In this document: piece by piece, positions 2,881 through 24,000 of the stretch | How positions within the stretch are numbered: position 1 is the stretch's first letter | Layout: each line of letters starts with the position of its first letter | Source: Candidatus Nitrospira allomarina | GTDB taxonomy: Bacteria; Nitrospirota; Nitrospiria; Nitrospirales; UBA8639 | NCBI RefSeq assembly: GCF_032050975.1 | Contig: NZ_CP116967.1 | Coordinates: forward strand, 2,353,001-2,417,000 | Length of the DNA stretch: 64,000 bases | Reading direction: 5' to 3' | Notes under the pieces: generated by a model | Told to the model about the DNA's origin: nothing | What the model saw: only the letters and a program-made list of their open reading frames with translations | Database searches by the model: none | Program-made: the position numbers and the translations under genes

Positions 2881-4140
2881 TTAATTGCGATCCTGTAACC
2901 CGGCCAGCCGTTGTTCAAGAAATCGCTGCTCGGGCTTCTGCTGCGTGAGGCCGAGAGCCTGTTTGTATGCGGCCTTGGCTTCCGCAATTCGGCCCAATCG
3001 TCGGCAGAGCTCCGCCTTCGCCGAATGTGCCAGGTAATAATTCGTGAGATCCCCTCGTGCGAAAATGGCGTCGATGAGGGCAAGACCTGCCAGGGGACTG
3101 TCACGCATGGCCACTGCGACGGCGCGATTCAGTTCCACCACAGGGGAAGGAGATGCCTGCATCAACATATCGTAGAGTGACACGATTTGAGGCCAGTCCG
3201 TGGCTGTGGGATGTGTTGCCTGGGAATGTAATCCGGAAATCGCGGCCTGGATGGTATAAGGGCCGATTTCACGTGAAGCAAACGCCTTTCCTACCAGGGT
3301 AATCCCCTCTGCGATCTGATCCCGGTTCCACAACGAACGATCCTGGTCCTCAAGCAGAATCAGATCTCCAGTTTGGGAGATGCGTGCGGCGCGGCGGGAG
3401 TCATGAAGGAGCATTAATGCCAAGAGCCCCATCGCTTCCGCGTCCGGTAATAATTCCATCAATAATCGCCCCAGTCGAATAGCTTCAGCCGAGAGGTCAT
3501 GACGTGTGAGAGATTCCCCCGAAGAGGCAGAGTATCCTTCGTTAAACACGAGGTAAATCACCCGCAGCACCGCATCCAGACGGTCGGGCAAGGTGGTCTC
3601 AGAAGGCACCTCATAGGGTATGCGTGCTTTCCGAATCTTTGTCTTGGCGCGAACGATCCGCTGAGCCACTGTGGGCGGGGATGTGAGAAAGGCTTTTGCG
3701 ATTTCTTCCGTCGTCAGGCCACACACCTCCCGGAGAGTCATCGCTACTTGGGCTTCAGATGAAAGAGCCGGGTGGCAGCAGGTAAAGATCAGTCGTAGCC
3801 GGTCGTCGTCGATGCTTTCATCCGGATTTTCATGAGTGTCATGAATGCCGGCTTCCAACTGCGTGGCGAGTTCTGCAAGCGAGGCGTCGAATCTGGTCCG
3901 TCGCCGCATTCCATCGATCGCTTTGAAACGTCCGGTCGACACGAGCCAGGCTCGCGGATTGGCCGGGATCCCATCCCTGGTCCATTGTTCGACCGCGACC
4001 GCAAACGCCTCGTGCAACGCTTCTTCAGCCGCATCAAAGTCGCCGAGCAGGCGGATCAAGGTGGCGAGAATCCGGCGCGATTCAGTGCGGTACACTTCCT
4101 CCACCACCTCCCGCACCTCTCTAGCCGGTCTTTCACTCAT
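2881..4140 (-). CDS. ECF42-type RNA polymerase sigma factor with C-terminal TPR-like extension
   Basis: 419 residues, about twice an ordinary ECF sigma factor. Region 2 spans roughly residues 10-80 (LGDFDAAEEALHEAFAVAVE, NPRAWLVSTGRFKAIDGMRR). Region 4 covers about 110-180 (CGLTTEEIAKAFLTSPPTVA, a helix-turn-helix). Residues from about 200 to the end form the helical extension typical of group ECF42 (YLVFNEGYSASSGE, LALMLLHDSRRAAR, AHSAKAELCRRLGRIAEA). That group has no anti-sigma factor and depends on the extension. Two matching promoter copies lie downstream, in front of DGPF genes. No such promoter was seen before the sigma gene itself, so autoregulation is not supported here. Confidence 0.93.
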   Translation of the reverse strand: MSERPAREVREVVEEVYRTESRRILATLIRLLGDFDAAEEALHEAFAVAVEQWTRDGIPANPRAWLVSTGRFKAIDGMRRRTRFDASLAELATQLEAGIHDTHENPDESIDDDRLRLIFTCCHPALSSEAQVAMTLREVCGLTTEEIAKAFLTSPPTVAQRIVRAKTKIRKARIPYEVPSETTLPDRLDAVLRVIYLVFNEGYSASSGESLTRHDLSAEAIRLGRLLMELLPDAEAMGLLALMLLHDSRRAARISQTGDLILLEDQDRSLWNRDQIAEGITLVGKAFASREIGPYTIQAAISGLHSQATHPTATDWPQIVSLYDMLMQASPSPVVELNRAVAVAMRDSPLAGLALIDAIFARGDLTNYYLAHSAKAELCRRLGRIAEAKAAYKQALGLTQQKPEQRFLEQRLAGLQDRN

Positions 4141-4249
4141 GATCGAAAGGCATCACGTTGAGAAGCACGGAAAGACCATCGAGGTATGGCGTGCGCGTTC
4201 AGGGAAGCGATCGCCTCTGCTGAGGTGGGATGAGAGAGAATGTTGTCCG

Positions 4250-4699
4250 TTATTCTGCTTCAACCGTGACCTCTGTTGTCACCGAATTGGCAATAAAACA
4301 TTCGCTGTGAGCCTGCTCATGGAGAGCGTGTCTCTGTTCCTGAGTCGGAAGAGTCGGCCCACCGAATATCACTCGAGGATGTAAGATGACACGTGTAATC
4401 GCCAGCTTGTTGTTTTGATTTTTTTCTAACAATCCAACAGCATGATCACTATAGCGATCCACAACGAATCGTTTCTTGGCTGCCATTGCCAGGAAAGTCA
4501 GCATATGACAGCTCGACAAGGCCGCCACAAAGGCTTCCTCAGGATTTACATGAGCGGGATTCCCCCGATAGGCCGGTGCGGCGGAGGCGGGAACGCGAAC
4601 CCCACCTTCAAAAAACAACTCATGGTCTCGATTATACGATTCGTACGAAAAGTTCTCTGATCCCCTCTTCCATTCCAGCGTGATCTTATGCTCAGACAT
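4250..4699 (-). CDS. OsmC/Ohr-family peroxiredoxin-like protein
   Basis: 149 residues. It has the OsmC-family layout: an N-terminal beta strand region, NPEEAFVAALSSCHMLTFLA carrying the first reactive cysteine (Cys64), and HSECFIANSVTTEV carrying the second (Cys134). These two cysteines reduce organic hydroperoxides in OsmC/Ohr enzymes, usually with lipoyl or thiol donors in the cytoplasm. AAGGGG precedes ATG 4699. It lies 109 bp upstream of the sigma gene on the same strand and shows no ECF42-type promoter. The GGVRVPASAAPAYRGNPAHV stretch is closer to the broader OsmC group than to classical Ohr, so the exact peroxide preference is open. Confidence 0.9.
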   Translation of the reverse strand: MSEHKITLEWKRGSENFSYESYNRDHELFFEGGVRVPASAAPAYRGNPAHVNPEEAFVAALSSCHMLTFLAMAAKKRFVVDRYSDHAVGLLEKNQNNKLAITRVILHPRVIFGGPTLPTQEQRHALHEQAHSECFIANSVTTEVTVEAE

Positions 4700-5119
4700 T
4701 GATCAACCCCTTTCGAAAGCGTGACAATCATTTTTTTTGTTGAGGCGACTTCCCTGTGCTTGGACGATCGAAAACGAATCCGGGTACTTATGCGCATTCG
4801 CGGTAACAGATTCCCAGACGATTGCCGCTGGAATCTTCAAAAAACAGCAAAATAATGTCACATCAACTACACTCTTCATTTCGCAGTGCTTGCCGCTGTT
4901 TTCCGTACTCGTGTATTTTCCTCATCAGAGCAATTTTTATTGATGTGTAATTTGTGCATCCCGATATGTGGCGGTTCGTCTAAAGAAAGTGTCCGCCAGA
5001 CAATATTTTCATTGTACCGGCGCCTGGGGGTTCCATAAGAAGCTGGTCGGATTCTTCCAAGCGGGCCGCCGGTTCTAGTCTCAAGATTTCATTTATAGTT
5101 TATTTTACCCGAATGACTC
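4700..5119. other. Intergenic region with no supported gene
   Basis: 420 bp between the OsmC and Rid genes. No convincing start or ribosome-binding site is seen on either strand. On the minus strand 4862-4788 encodes FFEDSSGNRLGI before a stop, which resembles the C-terminal strand of a VOC/glyoxalase protein, but an in-frame stop lies 24 codons upstream. It may be a decayed gene end. Confidence 0.4.
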
Positions 5120-16729: not shown

Positions 16730-17296
16730 TTAGGAGGGTTTGAGCTTGTCTGAAAAGCGTTGCCGGAACTTCGCCACTTTGGGATTAATGAGGTAGGCGC
16801 AGTAAGGTTGTGACGGGTTTTGCACAAAATATTCCTGGTGGTAATCTTCAGCCATGTAAAAGGGTGACGCGGGTTCCACCTGGGTCACAATGGGATCGTT
16901 GAACAACCTGGCTTCCGTCAGCGCGTGAATGACCTCGTGTGCGATCGCATTTTGTGTTGAGGAATGGGTGAAAATGGCGGAGCGATATTGGGTCCCAGCA
17001 TCATTCCCTTGTCGGTTGAGGGTGGTGGGGTCATGGATGCCAAAAAAGATTTCCAGGAGCTCCCGGTAGGTGATGATGCCGGGATTAAAGGTAATCTGTA
17101 TCACCTCGGCATGTCCCGTGTTTCCACTGCAGACGGCCTCATAAGTTGGATTGGGGCGACTACCGCCCATATAGCCGGATTCTACGGACTCGACACCCTT
17201 CACCTGATCGAATACGGCTTCGAGGCACCAGAAGCAGCCGCCACCCAATGTGGCGAGTTCTTTTCCTGTTGATGTGGCTATGGCCGAGTCAGACAT
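16730..17296 (-). CDS. msrA: Peptide-methionine (S)-S-oxide reductase MsrA
   Basis: 188 residues. The catalytic GGGCFWCLEAVF motif gives Cys21 as the nucleophile, followed by GVESVESGYMGGSRPNPTYE, GHAEVIQITFNP, FFGIHDPTTLNRQGNDAGTQ and YHQEYFVQNP, all standard for MsrA. The enzyme repairs the S-epimer of methionine sulfoxide in proteins using thioredoxin. AAAGGAG stands before ATG 17296. The start overlaps the stop of the upstream transglutaminase-like gene by 8 bp, so the two are probably co-transcribed and coupled. There is no fused MsrB domain and no MsrB gene in the window. Confidence 0.97.
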   Translation of the reverse strand: MSDSAIATSTGKELATLGGGCFWCLEAVFDQVKGVESVESGYMGGSRPNPTYEAVCSGNTGHAEVIQITFNPGIITYRELLEIFFGIHDPTTLNRQGNDAGTQYRSAIFTHSSTQNAIAHEVIHALTEARLFNDPIVTQVEPASPFYMAEDYHQEYFVQNPSQPYCAYLINPKVAKFRQRFSDKLKPS

Positions 17297-17960
17297 GCGT
17301 TACTCCTTTAAATGAGTCGTCATTTAAGTAAGAAGAGAATTTTTCTCCCACAATTTCCAAATCCGGTAGATTTTCCGCGACAGCTTGATAGTTTGTACTA
17401 TTTTCAAGTACGGAAATGACTTCAGGGAGCGGTTCAGCCCATATTCCGGGTACATCAGCTTCTCCCTCAGTCCTGATTGGAAATGCGAGTTGCTCCACTA
17501 GTGGACAAAAAGACGCATGGACTCCGGCCTTGTTGCCGCGGGCATCCACCCGATGCCATCCGAACTCTTTTAAATACAAGGCATTGAGCCCATGTAAACA
17601 AAATGGTGGTGTATTGTGCGCAATGGTTAATCGTTGATAACACAGACCTGTTGGAATGCCCCGGGCTCGAAGTAACGCGGCGAGTAAATGGCTTTTTGCA
17701 TAACAATAGCCTGTTCCATGTTTGAGAACATCGGAGGCTTTGCATGTCACGGGGTTGAGAGCATAGTCAAAGCTATGTTGTATGTTGTCACGCACAAACT
17801 GAAAGCAGACCCTGGCAAATTGAAGGGAATCTTGGCAGGTCTCCGACAATTCCCGCGCAAGACTGAGAATATTTGCCGTGCGCCAATCGATATAATAGGT
17901 TGATTCAAGGTATTTCTGCATGGTTTCTATCTTGGAAGGTTTAATGCCAGAACTCATCAT
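17289..17960 (-). CDS. Transglutaminase-like cysteine peptidase-fold protein
   Basis: 223 residues from ATG 17960; ATG 17921 (MQKYLESTYYIDW) is an alternative start. The transglutaminase-core triad is visible: Cys86 in HGTGYCYAKSHLLAALLRAR, His123 in FCLHGLNALYL and Asp139 in GWHRVDARGNKAG. There is no signal peptide, so a cytoplasmic location is expected. Bacterial proteins of this type are often amidases or peptidases of unknown substrate rather than cross-linking enzymes. It overlaps msrA by 8 bp and shares its transcript. The divergent metallophosphoesterase gene lies 243 bp away. Confidence 0.88.
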   Translation of the reverse strand: MMSSGIKPSKIETMQKYLESTYYIDWRTANILSLARELSETCQDSLQFARVCFQFVRDNIQHSFDYALNPVTCKASDVLKHGTGYCYAKSHLLAALLRARGIPTGLCYQRLTIAHNTPPFCLHGLNALYLKEFGWHRVDARGNKAGVHASFCPLVEQLAFPIRTEGEADVPGIWAEPLPEVISVLENSTNYQAVAENLPDLEIVGEKFSSYLNDDSFKGVTHV

Positions 17961-18203: not shown

Positions 18204-19037
18204 ATGCGGATAGTGTGGGCTACCGACATCCACTTGAATTTTCTGGGTATCGAGGGACGGGACGTATTTTTTTCGTCCATTCGTGCTCAACAACCTGACG
18301 TCGTGTTTGTGACCGGAGACATTGCTGAGGCTCCATCGTTGGGCCATCTGCTCCATGAAATGCGTCAAGCGATTCACGTGCCGTTGTATTTCGTTCTGGG
18401 GAATCATGATTTTTACTATGGTTCGATTTCCCACATTCGAAATGATTTGAAAGGCTGGTGTCAGAGTCAGCCAGGACTCACCTATCTTTCGACATCCGGG
18501 GTGGTCGAATTGACTCCGACGACGGCGTTGGTCGGGCATGACGGGTGGGGAGACGGGCGCTATGGAAACTATCATCTGTCCCCGGTTAGGCTCAGTGATC
18601 AGGAGTTGATCGTGGATTTTCAGGATTTAGATCGGGAGGCGGTGTTACGCAAACTCCGTGCGTTGGGAGATGAGGCGGCTTGCTATTTGCGAGATAGTTT
18701 GGATGAGGCCTTGTCATCATATCAGCGTGTCATTTGCCTGACGCATGTCCCGCCATTTAAAGAAGCCTGCTGGTATCAGGGGAAATTGGGAAACGATGAT
18801 TGGCTTCCATATTTTGCCTGCCAGGCCGTTGGCGAGGTGTTACTTCACGCATCACGGGAACGACCGGATTCTCAAATTACCGTCTTGTGTGGCCATACCC
18901 ATCATGCAGGGACCGTTCACCTGCGACCAAATCTGCAGGTTCTTACGGGTTCTGCCGAATATGGTGCCCCGTGTATTCAAGAGAGTTTTGACCTTGAGAA
19001 ACTGTTTCCCCCATTTAATGTTGGTAGAAGGCGGTGA
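18204..19037 (+). CDS. Metallophosphoesterase
   Basis: 277 residues from ATG 18204, which GAGGAG precedes by 8 nt (the frame opens at 18180). The two-metal calcineurin-like site is complete: ATDIH (Asp8, His10), VTGDI (Asp39), LGNHDF (Asn67, His68), LVGHDGWGDG, CLTHVPP and CGHTHHAGTV. The family cleaves phosphomonoesters, phosphodiesters or cyclic nucleotides; the specific substrate cannot be read from the sequence. No signal peptide, so cytoplasmic. It is transcribed away from the msrA pair and converges on the DCC-family gene with 58 bp between stops. Confidence 0.92.
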   Translation: MRIVWATDIHLNFLGIEGRDVFFSSIRAQQPDVVFVTGDIAEAPSLGHLLHEMRQAIHVPLYFVLGNHDFYYGSISHIRNDLKGWCQSQPGLTYLSTSGVVELTPTTALVGHDGWGDGRYGNYHLSPVRLSDQELIVDFQDLDREAVLRKLRALGDEAACYLRDSLDEALSSYQRVICLTHVPPFKEACWYQGKLGNDDWLPYFACQAVGEVLLHASRERPDSQITVLCGHTHHAGTVHLRPNLQVLTGSAEYGAPCIQESFDLEKLFPPFNVGRRR

Positions 19038-19095
19038 GGGTGAAGAAGGCGCAGCCGGTAGAAACTGATGCCTCCGGAAGGCCATCAGGTCCCCG

Positions 19096-19530
19096 CTAAA
19101 TAAATCTGGTCCGTTCGTGTGGAGTAGGTACGCGGCACGAGTCGGATTTGCCCATCCACTGATAGCGATGCCGGGCGATAAAACTGTACACCATATCGCG
19201 AAGTGGCCGGGGAATGATGAGGAAGGCATACAGCCAAGGCCAAGCTCCAGGAAGGCTGCGAAAAATTTTGAGAGCTGCAGTGGATTTTGTAAAGACCTTC
19301 CCGTGTTCCAGCAGTAAAAAGGTTTCATAATCCTGGGTCGAAAGATGAAGGTGGGTGAGAATGTCCTGTGCCGGTTGGGATTGAAGCGTTCCGAATTTAA
19401 ATAATCCTCGGGAATCCCTCTCGAGGACAAAATTGACAAACGCATTGCAAAAATTACACACCCCATCAAAGACAATCACCTTTTCGTGCTTGCCCCAATC
19501 ATGGGATGGTAAGGAAGATCCCTGTTTCAC
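19096..19530 (-). CDS. DCC-family (DUF393) thiol-disulfide oxidoreductase-like protein
   Basis: 144 residues. The conserved VIVFDGVCNFCNAFVNF (Asp22, Cys25, Cys28) gives the family its name; ALKIFRSLPGAWPWLYAFLI and the YSFIARHRYQWMG segment complete it. These proteins have a thioredoxin-like fold and a CxxC pair, but their redox partner is unknown. It is the third gene of a minus-strand group with an HTTM membrane protein and an unknown partner (113 bp after the HTTM stop). DCC and HTTM proteins often occur together, so a joint role in a membrane redox or lipid-modifying step is a reasonable guess. Confidence 0.9.
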   Translation of the reverse strand: MKQGSSLPSHDWGKHEKVIVFDGVCNFCNAFVNFVLERDSRGLFKFGTLQSQPAQDILTHLHLSTQDYETFLLLEHGKVFTKSTAALKIFRSLPGAWPWLYAFLIIPRPLRDMVYSFIARHRYQWMGKSDSCRVPTPHERTRFI

Positions 19531-19643
19531 GTAGGTGCCCTTTTCTCTGATCGCGCTTTACTGTGTGTCGGTCAGTCGCAATGAAAAACTTCCCTTTCAT
19601 TATAATACATGAGACCCCTACAGGTTTTCTAAGGCGGTAGCGC

Positions 19644-20603
19644 CTAACCAGCCATGGAAGGTCGACGTTTGAAGAGTCGCCATGCATGGACTTGGAGCCA
19701 TTGATGGATGGGAACAAGATCGAAAAAAATGAAGTAGACAAACGGGATTAACAAAAAATTGACATCCATGAGGATAAAGGAGGAAATGTGGAAAATAATG
19801 ACGCCGGTCAAAAAGAAGGCCCGCAGCTTGACCGATTTAATGAAGAGGATCAATGGAAAACCCAGTTCGAACGCGAGCACCAGATGGGAGAAAATCTGAA
19901 TAAGGTCCGGGCGTTGGGCTAGCTCGAAGCTTAAGCTATTTTTGACCAGTTCCCCTTCGCCTGTCATGCCCCATCGGACAGAGCGTTTGATCAGCACCTC
20001 CTGGATTCGGCCTTCGCCGGAAAACCATTCCCATCCGCTAACCCGCACTTTGGCGATGACACTCCAAAAATAAAACAGAGCGACATAGAGTTGCATCATT
20101 TTAATGGGCCAACTGGCCTCCCATTCCTGGAGGGGAGGGTGTGTGTCGTGGCGTGAGTCACGAGAATGGACTTCCCCGCACCTGGAGAGCAGAAAAAGGA
20201 AAAGCATTTGCATGGGGATGATATAGCGATGGTGGACGTCGCCGCTAAAGCTGTCTCTCACCCCCTTTAAATAAAAAATACAGAGGATAACGATAAGAAT
20301 TGATGTCCGGGTCCATTTCCCCATGATCATACCGACCGTGGCGGTCATCAGGAGTGCATAGATGATAAACGACAGGGCAGGGATATGGTACTGAATCCCA
20401 AGCAGATGAAAATACCAAATGGGGTCCAGGAAATAATTTCTGGAGCCGATCGGGTTGAGAGTCAGGACTGTGGCAAATTGATAGGTGTGGAAAAACAAAA
20501 GTCCGCATCCAATATACATCCGCAAAAGACCAAGGCTCTCTCCCGAAAATCCTTTAAAGAAAAATTGATTCCAGCCACGACTAATGAGGTTACAGAATGC
20601 CAT
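19644..20603 (-). CDS. HTTM-domain membrane protein (vitamin K-dependent carboxylase-like)
   Basis: 319 residues with about eight hydrophobic segments. GLLRMYIGCGLLFFHTYQF, SFSGDVHHRYIIPMQMLFLF and MQLYVALFYFWSVIAKVRVS with GWEWFSGEG match the HTTM domain, the membrane part shared with vitamin K-dependent gamma-glutamyl carboxylase. Bacterial HTTM proteins have no proven reaction. It overlaps the upstream 198-residue gene by 14 bp and is followed by a DCC-family gene, so all three are likely one operon. The C-terminal soluble domain of the true carboxylase is absent, which argues against protein carboxylation. Confidence 0.88.
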   Translation of the reverse strand: MAFCNLISRGWNQFFFKGFSGESLGLLRMYIGCGLLFFHTYQFATVLTLNPIGSRNYFLDPIWYFHLLGIQYHIPALSFIIYALLMTATVGMIMGKWTRTSILIVILCIFYLKGVRDSFSGDVHHRYIIPMQMLFLFLLSRCGEVHSRDSRHDTHPPLQEWEASWPIKMMQLYVALFYFWSVIAKVRVSGWEWFSGEGRIQEVLIKRSVRWGMTGEGELVKNSLSFELAQRPDLIQIFSHLVLAFELGFPLILFIKSVKLRAFFLTGVIIFHISSFILMDVNFLLIPFVYFIFFDLVPIHQWLQVHAWRLFKRRPSMAG

Positions 20604-21186
20604 GTTCCCACCTTGGCAGCCATTCGTCCTGCCATTCGATCAAGGCCTCTCGCGTGTCAATCTGAACAGTGCTAAGGTCTTTCCGCAGTAAATCTTTCTT
20701 CCGATACACACGTTTCTGATGGCCGGCCTCTATACGAATGATAAATTTAGGGTCAGAAGGTTCATGTCCTAGTGTTTTGTTGAGAGTCCAAAACATTCGC
20801 CATTCCCAATCAACTTCAAACCGAGGTTCATCTTCCTCTAATCCGCGGACCCATTGGTTGAGCGCCCCCAATTCAATATTTCCCTGTTTATGTTTAGGAG
20901 GGGCGGTGCCAAACATTCTCGAATAATATAAACGTCGAAAATTCGGTTTGGGAATATTGAGATCCTTATAGGATACGTAACCGGTTGATCCGTCCCGGTG
21001 AGTAACTTTGAGGCCTTTTTGATATTTGTCTTTGTCCCATACTTTGACTGATATGGTTTCGCGTGGCTCATACACGCTATACATGGGAACCCAGGTTAAG
21101 GGAAAGTAATCGATTCGAAATATGACTGCCGCCCAAATGATGGCCAAGTAGACAACAAGAATCAGGGTAATGGTCCGCTTGCTCAC
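20590..21186 (-). CDS. Membrane-anchored hypothetical protein, HTTM partner
   Basis: 198 residues. One N-terminal membrane helix (TITLILVVYLAIIWAAVIF) is followed by FPLTWVPMYSVYEPRE and a charged, tryptophan-rich extracytoplasmic domain (NQWVRGLEEDEPRFEVDWEW). I know no name for the family. The stop overlaps the HTTM start by 14 bp, which indicates translational coupling and a shared function. The 'PLTWxPMY' motif is also seen in partners of other HTTM-like proteins, as far as I recall. Only AAGGTT stands before ATG 21186. A subunit or substrate-presenting role is inference. Confidence 0.75.
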   Translation of the reverse strand: MSKRTITLILVVYLAIIWAAVIFRIDYFPLTWVPMYSVYEPRETISVKVWDKDKYQKGLKVTHRDGSTGYVSYKDLNIPKPNFRRLYYSRMFGTAPPKHKQGNIELGALNQWVRGLEEDEPRFEVDWEWRMFWTLNKTLGHEPSDPKFIIRIEAGHQKRVYRKKDLLRKDLSTVQIDTREALIEWQDEWLPRWEHGIL

Positions 21187-21789
21187 ACAAACCTTCCTTG
21201 TGAGGTATTGAGCGGGGTAGTCATGTGGGTGTCTTCCCCTTAAGGTGAAGGTTTAAGTGACGGGAAAGCCCATTATCTTAAGAAAGGTGAGAGAACTCAA
21301 TAGTGAGAAGGTTACGAAAAAAATTATTGTTCGTGTGATTAGCGAACGGAGAGGGAAGGGGATTATTGTCGATTTTCTATGAGAATAGAAAGAAAGAAGC
21401 GCGGACTAATTCTCATATTATCCTGGGATAGAACGGTTGTGCAGTAGGAATTTTTGCGAACCTCCTGTCCGGGTTTCTATAGTGCTGGAGTCGATTGGCT
21501 CATTTTAGTGTGGTCTCTAAGATGGGGATTCGGAATTAAAAGCTTTGGGCCCGTATCCTGGTTGACTTGTGCGGTTGGCGATTTCTATGGTAAAGACTTT
21601 GTATCGCAGGAAGATGGTGCGTCCTCGGTGATCTGCTCTAGTTGTTCCTGTCGCAATGTTTTCTCTAGTTTAAGTGGTGCTTCACCTTAGGTTGGCCATT
21701 GACCCAACTTGTGGATTGACATGGGGCTGTGCCCTCAGAGCGTCCACATGTGCGGTCAAAATTCACAAATAGGTAAGGAGTGAGACTTA
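21187..21789. other. Intergenic region without a supported gene
   Basis: 603 bp between divergent genes. A dyad TTCTAT-4-ATAGAA lies at 21375-21390. A 78-codon frame at 21454-21690 has no ribosome-binding site and no recognisable sequence and is not called. No RNA gene was recognised. Confidence 0.45.
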
Positions 21790-22395
21790 ATGACGGTAGG
21801 TGTGCTCATTGATCGTCTCGAAGAATTTCGAAAGGGAGTTCTCCGGTATAGGGAGATATCCGGGCCGGATCAGGGGCTGACCCGCAACGGCCCGGTTGGG
21901 TTGGACTCATCACAGTCAAATGCCTTACGGGATACCCTTTGCCGGCAGTTTCATTTCATAGATGAGTCTGTAGGGGCTTTTAGCAGGGGTCGCTACCGTA
22001 TTCATTTAGATTCCAGGGGTCGAGAGGATATTTATGTTCGTGCGTTTTCTGAAGAATGTCAGGCAGAGCATCTTGACCTTATTCTGAGTGATCTTGAGCA
22101 CATGTTGGCTGAGCTACAAAAACGGCCTCGTCAGTCTCTTCTTGGCGCACAGAAGGAATGGCCGGATAATTCGGGTACCAACTCTCAGCCTTCCTTCGGC
22201 TCGTTGGGCCACCTCGGCTCTTTTCCATCTGCCGCATCTTCCCAAACGCTGCACGCCGCGTTGAATACGGTGGCAAGCGTCATTCAGCAACGAGTTGATC
22301 AATCCCAAGACCAGGAGGAGCTTTTGGCCCATGTGCAAGCCATCCTGGATCATCCTAAAGTCACCCACCTCCTTTCCTTCTCCCCTTCCCACTAA
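21790..22395 (+). CDS. Hypothetical protein
   Basis: 201 residues, TAAGGAG before ATG 21790. The N-terminal part is helical and charged (VGVLIDRLEEFRKGVLRYRE), the middle has a possible beta section (GRYRIHLDSRGREDIYVRAF), then an alpha segment (HLDLILSDLEHMLAELQKR), a serine/glycine-rich low-complexity linker and a final helical stretch. No signal peptide, membrane segment or known motif. It stands alone with 603 bp before it and 300 bp after it, neither of which holds a called gene. Coding status rests on the ribosome-binding site and on the length. Confidence 0.6.
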   Translation: MTVGVLIDRLEEFRKGVLRYREISGPDQGLTRNGPVGLDSSQSNALRDTLCRQFHFIDESVGAFSRGRYRIHLDSRGREDIYVRAFSEECQAEHLDLILSDLEHMLAELQKRPRQSLLGAQKEWPDNSGTNSQPSFGSLGHLGSFPSAASSQTLHAALNTVASVIQQRVDQSQDQEELLAHVQAILDHPKVTHLLSFSPSH

Positions 22396-22695: not shown

Positions 22696-24000
22696 ATGGC
22701 GAAATCTTCTAAACAATTTCTTCATTGGTCGATCAGCCGGGTGGTGCCGGTTGACCGTGATGAACTTCCTGCCCTCATCTGGTCGTTTGTCTATTTTTTT
22801 TGTGTGCTGGCGGCCTACTACATCCTGCGACCGGTTCGCGATGAAATGGGAGTGCTCTCGGGGGCTCATAATCTCCCGTGGTTGTTCTCAGTTGTGTTCA
22901 TCACGATGCTAGCCGTGATCCCGGTGTTTGGCTCGGTCGCGGGGCATTTTCCGATTCGTCGATTATTGCCAACGGTCTATGTGTTTTTCATTCTGAATCT
23001 TTTGGCATTTTTTGTGGCTTTGCAAAGTGGAGTCGGGTTGCAAGTCTTTGGGCCCATCTTTTTTGTTTGGTTGAGTGTGTTTAATTTATTCGTCGTGTCG
23101 GTGTTTTGGAGTTTTATGGCCGATGTGTTTCGCACTGATGCGGCTCGGCGACTCTTTGGTTGTATTTCCGCAGGAGGCAGTCTTGGCGCCATGACAGGGC
23201 CGTTTATCACCGCAATGGCGGTAAAAGGGGTCGGGGTTTCCGGGTTACTCTTAGTGTCAGCGATCTTCTTATTGATCGCGGTGGGATGCATTATGGCGTT
23301 GTTGAAATGGTATCACGGCCATCACGGGGTTGATCTGGGAAACCGACACCTTTCTTCACTCAGGAATTCTGAAGCCACTCCTCCCAGCTTATGGGTAGGA
23401 GTGGTGTGCATTGTTCGCTCGCCGTATTTGAAAGGCATTGCCCTCTATCTTATGTGTTATTCAATTCTGTCAACCTTCCTGTATTCGCAGCAAACCATAT
23501 TAATTCCGCAAGTCATGCCGAGTTCGGAAGATCGCATGCAATTGTTCGCATCGGTGGATCTTGGGATCAATGTGTTCGCGTTCACGCTCCAGTTTTTCGC
23601 AACAGGCTGGCTGTTGACCCGTTTTGGCGTCGTGATCATGTTGGCTGTCATGCCCCTGGTATCATTGATTGGATTTGGGGTGTTTGGTTTGGTGACCGTT
23701 CTGCCGGTCTTGATCGGATTTGGTGTCCTACGGCGTGCGGGAGAATTTTCCATCACCAAGCCGACGCGGGAAACCCTGTTTACGGTCGTTTCCCGTGAAG
23801 AAAAATATCAGGCGAAAAATGTGATTGATACGGTCGTTCATCGAGGTGCCGATATGACGGGGACCGGGATTGTCTCCGTCTTTCATACCTGGGGAATGAC
23901 CTTGTCTCACATGGCATTTGCGGCACTGCCCATTGCGGGTCTATGGCTCGCCACGGGTCTGTGGCTTGGGCGACGACACGAAACGATCCGGCGACGATGA
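22696..24000 (+). CDS. MFS-type transporter of the NTP/NDP-exchange (Tlc-like) group
   Basis: 434 residues with twelve hydrophobic segments in two halves. The N-terminal FCVLAAYYILRPVRDEMGVL is the hallmark of the ATP:ADP antiporter-like group, as are WSFMADVFRTDAARRLFGCI with SAGGSLGAM and RAGEFSITKPTRETLFTVVS. In free-living bacteria these carriers do not usually exchange ATP; the substrate is unknown. There is no obvious ribosome-binding site at ATG 22696. It is the first of four plus-strand genes with a gamma-glutamylcyclotransferase-like protein, a small membrane protein and a solute symporter, though 104 bp separates it from the next. Confidence 0.85.
   Translation: MAKSSKQFLHWSISRVVPVDRDELPALIWSFVYFFCVLAAYYILRPVRDEMGVLSGAHNLPWLFSVVFITMLAVIPVFGSVAGHFPIRRLLPTVYVFFILNLLAFFVALQSGVGLQVFGPIFFVWLSVFNLFVVSVFWSFMADVFRTDAARRLFGCISAGGSLGAMTGPFITAMAVKGVGVSGLLLVSAIFLLIAVGCIMALLKWYHGHHGVDLGNRHLSSLRNSEATPPSLWVGVVCIVRSPYLKGIALYLMCYSILSTFLYSQQTILIPQVMPSSEDRMQLFASVDLGINVFAFTLQFFATGWLLTRFGVVIMLAVMPLVSLIGFGVFGLVTVLPVLIGFGVLRRAGEFSITKPTRETLFTVVSREEKYQAKNVIDTVVHRGADMTGTGIVSVFHTWGMTLSHMAFAALPIAGLWLATGLWLGRRHETIRRR

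Follow-up and report, generated by a model that had tools for sequence, protein, structure and literature searches.

A stretch of 64,000 nucleotides from Candidatus Nitrospira allomarina (contig NZ_CP116967.1, positions 2,353,001 to 2,417,000 of the forward strand; here called the window) raises the question of what a bacterial HTTM protein, a probable relative of the membrane part of vitamin K-dependent gamma-carboxylase (VKGC), might do together with the two proteins encoded on either side of it. The host genome is a single contig of 4.55 Mb, and the organism is presumably a nitrite oxidiser. All three genes lie on the minus strand. The first (20590-21186) begins with a GTG codon directly downstream of AAGGAAGG and encodes U198, a membrane-anchored protein of 198 residues; the second (19644-20603) begins with ATG, overlaps the first by 14 bp (20590-20603) and encodes a 319-residue membrane protein placed in the HTTM/VKGC superfamily by profile comparison; and the third (19096-19530), which follows after a gap of 113 bp, begins with GTG and encodes a 144-residue DCC1-like protein. 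The analysis bore out the description in the initial annotation, which had listed three minus-strand genes with an anchored 198-residue protein, a 14-bp overlap with HTTM and a DCC protein containing CxxC. We propose that the operon may encode, as separate proteins, the parts of an HTTM/VKGC-superfamily membrane enzyme that would use a quinol to modify an exported peptide or protein, and we give this statement as a whole a probability of about 0.5.

If the three proteins act together, their genes should remain together. HTTM was searched in 48 genomes of the window's family and 16 gave a match: 13 close homologues including the window (74 to 100% identical), two distant fused forms, and one match, in G133, that was discarded as chance because it contained two internal stops and lay opposite an unrelated open reading frame (ORF) of 483 residues. 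Matches came from 12 of the 20 genomes that represent the window's own genus. The U198 and DCC genes flanked HTTM in identical order at all 13 close loci, the DCC gene being kept at each, and a fourteenth locus with the same layout (L025) came from another family of the order. Linkage in relatives, on which the initial annotation had staked its proposal beforehand, held throughout: the genes kept their order and the overlap measured exactly 14 bp at 14 of 14 loci (the window, 12 close homologues and L025), with 96 to 120 bp between HTTM and DCC. The ratio of nonsynonymous to synonymous substitution rates (dN/dS) was 0.05 to 0.19 in 13 of 15 comparisons, three of these having saturated dS (>2), and the other two gave no dS estimate. 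Six relatives from identified genomes were Nitrospirota metagenome-assembled genomes, and 7 of 395 genomes sampled across the phylum matched the HTTM alignment; the module is therefore sporadic. That the genes are neighbors by descent only, with no joint function, might be argued from the origin of 12 of the 14 loci in a single genus and from DCC proteins that occur away from HTTM, both at two other loci (L050 and L051) and as a second DCC1-like protein in the host genome (C1:4447131-4447460, L078). However, Alphaproteobacteria, Bacillota and Actinomycetota also combine these parts, and the fusion of the parts in two arrangements contradicts mere descent, which we find scarcely credible. We conclude that the three genes almost certainly constitute one conserved module.

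Neither U198 nor the HTTM protein matched a Pfam or NCBIfam family at E ≤ 1, and a PADLOC family scan of both found nothing. PF05090, the Pfam family for the HTTM/VKGC superfamily, had no match in the whole host genome, and several accepted relatives also fail it. With Pfam and NCBIfam silent, it is profile comparison that supports the name HTTM. In profile-profile alignment, the window HTTM matched HTTM proteins that are partnered with DUF5819 (97.3%, E 1.8e-11, 271 columns) and a Sulfitobacter protein that passes PF05090 (92%, E 6.6e-7). An alignment of 22 HTTM sequences including the window homologues had four invariant residues, R28, Y178, K185 and H272, and its profile retrieved human VKGC from the Protein Data Bank (PDB) at 5e-20. 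A profile of eight close sequences by themselves found nothing in the PDB. Because the 22-sequence profile contains better-known HTTM proteins, eight window-type sequences were also aligned separately with the human VKGC segment by hhalign, and they matched it at 87% and E 4e-6, with 0 of 60 local shuffles as good. In the hhalign alignment K185 (codon 20049-20051, minus strand) lies opposite human K218 and H125 (codon 20229-20231, minus strand) opposite human H160. K218 is reported to act as the base in deprotonation of the hydroquinone, and H160 to line the quinone and Glu pockets (PMC12589487, PMC9146348). H125 is invariant in all 13 close homologues. We conclude that the HTTM protein very probably belongs to the HTTM/VKGC superfamily, and the kinship with the carboxylase membrane part claimed by the initial annotation gains support from the conserved Lys and His positions. 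VKGC differs in being a single chain that carries a lumenal domain, whereas the 319-residue HTTM chain stops after the membrane domain and U198 is encoded separately; VKGC also has no DCC.

The same parts occur in distant relatives, both split and fused. At two loci in the window's own family (L016 and L017) a protein of 157 or 167 residues precedes a single HTTM-DCC chain; gene order is that of the window, where, in contrast, HTTM and DCC are separate. At L049, from the window's order, one chain of 722 residues comprises HTTM, DCC, a hydrophobic helix and a further domain. Plain trios of small protein, HTTM and DCC were found in Sulfitobacter, Streptomyces avidinii and Macrococcus. The order of the window is shared by the Novosphingobium and Sulfitobacter loci, the small protein of Sulfitobacter not being counted here as a U198 homologue, and by DUF5819-HTTM-DCC operons of Streptomyces, Macrococcus and Virgibacillus, which have the same three kinds of part and related HTTM proteins; U198, by contrast, is not a DUF5819 member. 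The Novosphingobium HTTM gene (L027, 3986-4957) is split into two frames (3986-4210 and 4334-4957), owing to interruption or sequencing error, and the chain at L026 runs off its contig end. Viral contigs contained no relative, and the single match among phages was weak and confined to the DCC part. Distant loci thus bring the three parts together or fuse them, as their proposed association would lead one to expect.

The 722-residue chain (L049 1009-3177, L071 7973-10141) is encoded between genes for an ABC-2 permease and a Wzt_C ATPase in a polysaccharide export locus. One could therefore suppose that what the complex modifies or exports is a polysaccharide of the envelope or its lipid carrier: L049 and L071 lie beside polysaccharide export, deacetylase, ABC-2 permease and Wzt_C genes, L072 beside two epimerases and a glycosyltransferase, and the Novosphingobium locus has lipopolysaccharide and capsule genes. 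With three relatives in such loci, a glycan target stays conceivable. The window and its close loci, however, are flanked by genes for a phosphoesterase, a transglutaminase-like protein, MsrA, a TLC transporter and others, none of them polysaccharide genes, and none were present in the Streptomyces, Bacillota and Sulfitobacter stretches examined; we regard a polysaccharide function as improbable.

Plasmid-borne HTTM loci widened the comparison. Twenty-two were examined, 16 bacterial and 6 haloarchaeal, leaving out six matching plasmid records (a second one from Sulfitobacter, three from Staphylococcus simulans and one each from Haladaptatus and Halomontanus). Directly upstream of HTTM, 15 of the 16 bacterial loci had a gene for a small, mostly anchored protein (DUF5819 at eight, SdpA at four and unnamed at three); at L048, the one locus that departs from this, HTTM is a fragment close to transposases. 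DCC was fused to HTTM or within two genes of it at 8 of the 16, on the opposite strand in one, a count biased upward by two loci first reached through their DCC part (L029 and L030) and downward by incomplete plasmid gene tables. At all six haloarchaeal loci, the HTTM chain runs on into a helix and a domain with the motif W[DN]MFAP. In Halorussus pelagicus (L038, 2057-2614), genes of the thioredoxin and glutathione S-transferase families lie directly upstream of the single-chain HTTM. DUF5819 was related both to the haloarchaeal C-terminal domain (88%, 0 of 40 shuffles) and to SdpA (71%, 0 of 40), links that membrane helices may somewhat flatter since column shuffles break such helices; SdpA compared directly with the haloarchaeal C termini was not significant (17 of 40 column shuffles). 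Profiles of the haloarchaeal C termini, of the full haloarchaeal HTTM proteins and of DUF5819 found no VKGC. As DUF5819 appears to be kin to both, the anchored partners and the fused C-terminal domain in the DUF5819/SdpA/haloarchaeal branch probably represent one class.

SdpA and SdpB are also where the nearest known biology lies. Both are reported to be required for processing of SdpC to the SDP toxin (PMC6818787), and the statement in the initial annotation that bacterial HTTM proteins have no assigned reaction overlooked this requirement for SdpB, an HTTM-related protein. U198 and HTTM could then be functional counterparts of SdpA and SdpB that process a secreted peptide, or help to export it, by means other than vitamin K-like chemistry, with DCC handling the cysteines of the peptide. 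The gene order is the same, an anchored protein followed by an HTTM-type protein; a Niallia locus runs DUF393-SdpA-SdpB-SDP toxin, with proteins matching TIGR04034 and TIGR04033; and DUF5819, found upstream of other HTTM genes, is related to SdpA as described above. The window proteins, in contrast, match neither of these two NCBIfam families, the HTTM-SdpB profile match is weak, no toxin-like gene is annotated among the scanned neighbors, where upstream there are only short unsupported ORFs whose conservation was not compared, and the window family keeps a VKGC-type His in place of the DGGD-type motif of SdpB. We therefore treat maturation of this kind as a possible, though doubtful, account on its own; it and quinol-driven modification are not mutually exclusive.

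U198 has a single hydrophobic helix (residues 5 to 23) followed by a soluble domain, and the motif WVPMYS (residues 32 to 37; 21076-21093, minus strand), which lies directly after the helix, is invariant in 13 of 13 close homologues. PMYS is invariant in nine aligned U proteins, and Novosphingobium has PMYA. Judged by local shuffles, the Novosphingobium U protein is related to U198 (1 of 500 as good) and, more clearly, to the L017 U protein (0 of 500); the direct comparison of the L016 U protein with U198 was weaker (12 of 500). A profile of U198 gave only chance matches in the PDB, a search of plasmids with U198 found nothing, and PF19136 (DUF5819) did not match U198, whereas it matched the S. 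avidinii partner protein. A weak Pfam match of one U198 homologue (E 0.11) was taken as chance.

The lumenal segment of human VKGC was compared with seven sets, of which U198 was one. In pairwise comparison, the best match of U198 paired LKVTHRDGSTGYVSY with VKITYRDGRTGELGY and was equaled by 6 of 400 shuffles, against 48 for DUF5819, 325 for the haloarchaeal C termini, 311 for SdpA, 263 for L049, 177 for L024 and 109 for Sulfitobacter. By hhalign, the U198 alignment had E 0.023 and was equaled by 0 of 50 shuffles, with 46 for DUF5819, 2 for the haloarchaeal set, 1 for SdpA and 0 for a combined profile. Homology of U198 to the lumenal domain is suggestive only. WVPMYS was also compared with WDMM of the human linker, the human letters being checked against PDB chains; M401 and M402 of human VKGC reportedly help to form the wall between the two pockets (PMC12589487). 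From its operon position, the fusions in relatives and these short motifs, and not from clear homology, we lean slightly toward U198 supplying in trans the last helix and the outer half of a VKGC-like enzyme.

The DCC protein matched PF04134 with 115.4 bits against a cutoff of 27.8, and its CxxC (C25 to C28; 19447-19458, minus strand) was invariant in the 13 close homologues and likewise in a set of 12 DCC sequences that comprised the window's own and those of the other loci. A hydropathy scan placed residues 18 to 36, a stretch that contains the CxxC, barely above threshold, and we take this stretch to be part of the fold core and not a membrane segment. Nine helices and, at the C terminus, a lumenal domain are described for VKGC (PMC12589487), which should place the stretch that joins helix 8 to helix 9 in the cytoplasm. 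Because DCC within the 722-residue L049 chain sits at the place that matches this stretch, we think it probable that DCC is a redox partner working on the cytoplasmic side. For the partner role that the initial annotation proposed for DCC, an outer-side placement is, by analogy with this fusion, less likely than a cytoplasmic one. Thiol chemistry without a modified substrate might also be imagined, with HTTM as a quinone reductase paired with DCC in a stress response and U198 as an accessory, since DCC has its thiol motif and is followed, two genes along on its strand, by msrA. The recurrent outer partner and the role of SdpAB in SDP maturation point instead to a substrate, and such a stress-response pair seems very unlikely.

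Which quinol the proposed enzyme would use is suggested by the host genome and by its relatives. MqnA had no match in the host genome. Two Nitrospira species are reported to contain neither ubiquinone nor menaquinone and to have methyl-plastoquinones instead (PMC12324825). By analogy, this organism may contain methyl-plastoquinone, although the window's family differs from that of most sample genomes within the order. If the analogy holds, a VKGC-like enzyme in this organism would need a benzoquinol. Since both menaquinone markers searched, MqnA and MenD, gave nothing over cutoff and methyl-plastoquinone is reported from Nitrospira, the cofactor may be a benzoquinol, unlike the naphthoquinol of VKGC, and the quinol in this organism is probably not menaquinol. 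The host genome also has two VKOR-family matches (C1:3934604-3934975 and C1:1964684-1965049; L075 and L076), one of them inside an 850-codon open frame; VKOR-family proteins are possible quinone or disulfide partners.

In the mechanism that we propose, HTTM would be the membrane domain that binds the quinol and carries out catalysis, K185 serving as the base and H125 lying toward the substrate. U198 would complete HTTM from outside, its helix and WVPMYS linker replacing VKGC helix 9 and the linker containing M401 and M402, and its outer domain would hold the exported substrate. DCC would act as thiol-disulfide partner at the end of HTTM that faces the cytoplasm, returning either the quinone or the enzyme to the reduced state. 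Overall, a quinol would most likely drive the modification of a peptide or protein that is exported; we put quinol chemistry itself at roughly even odds and view carboxylation in particular as doubtful. A fuller version is speculative and, taken whole, rather unlikely: a split three-protein carboxylase-like enzyme performs vitamin K-type base chemistry on a benzoquinol (methyl-plastoquinol) and not on a naphthoquinol, U198 is its detachable substrate-binding half, DCC stands in as reductase for the VKOR of animals, the target is an exported protein of Nitrospira-group bacteria, and SdpAB and the DUF5819-HTTM pairs are further members of the split class.

Several results weigh against the proposed mechanism. 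Window-type HTTM proteins matched SdpB directly only weakly (17%, E 0.0014, profile-profile), and SdpB and the DUF5819-partnered HTTM proteins have DGGD-like motifs near the HH of the window family and lack the His, which is thus not essential to all HTTM proteins. Neither of two methods linked U198 significantly to DUF5819, SdpA or the haloarchaeal C termini (equally good controls numbered 3, 8 and 5 of 40, respectively, for column shuffles and 455, 342 and 350 of 500 for local shuffles); its common ground with those partners is operon position, topology and a short post-helix motif. The hhalign probability for U198 with the human lumenal segment was only 2%. The C terminus of the L049 chain was considered as a U198 homologue and is not claimed as one, since 0 of 60 full shuffles but 78 of 500 local shuffles were as good. 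At 8 of the 16 bacterial plasmid loci, no DCC was found near HTTM among the annotated genes. MenD gave three matches in the host genome, all below the cutoff, MqnA and MenD being the only menaquinone steps searched. For the two membrane proteins alike, AlphaFold models from a seven-sequence input had low mean pLDDT values (41.4 and 40.4). Finally, no obvious substrate gene was seen beside the window operon, where the short upstream ORFs were not compared between relatives.

Around the operon, the minus strand showed no terminator-like site from 18900 to 21900, and a promoter-like match lies at 21300-21272, seven such matches being found against 3.9 expected. A transglutaminase-core gene (17289-17960, minus strand) overlaps msrA (16730-17296, minus strand); among six longer loci it was present at L019 and L020 and not found at L018, L021, L022 and L023, where msrA was kept. 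On the plus strand, a divergent gene (21790-22395) encodes a 201-residue protein with no family match, followed by a gene for a TLC ATP/ADP transporter-family protein (22696-24000, Pfam E 1.5e-13). TLC-family carriers are known mainly from bacteria that live inside cells and from plastids, and the presence of one here is odd. The 201-residue gene was not found at L010, L011, L012 and L015, where the transporter gene adjoins U198.

We know of nothing established about the function of bacterial HTTM proteins beyond the genetic requirement for SdpB. A literature search, which left most subscription journals outside its reach, found no publication on DUF5819 and none joining HTTM with SdpA and SdpB, with DCC/DUF393 or with a thiol-disulfide oxidoreductase, and the only co-mention of vitamin K-dependent carboxylase, HTTM and bacteria was in a paper on GGCX phenotypes. 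A module that keeps the VKGC Lys and His positions, and that has its parts on separate chains in some genomes and on one chain in others, offers a short list of residues and partners that can be tested. If the module is quinol driven, vitamin K-like base chemistry would not be tied to vitamin K, because two Nitrospira species reportedly have neither menaquinone nor ubiquinone (PMC12324825). SdpA and SdpB, which are genetically tied to peptide maturation, would in that case gain a candidate chemistry.

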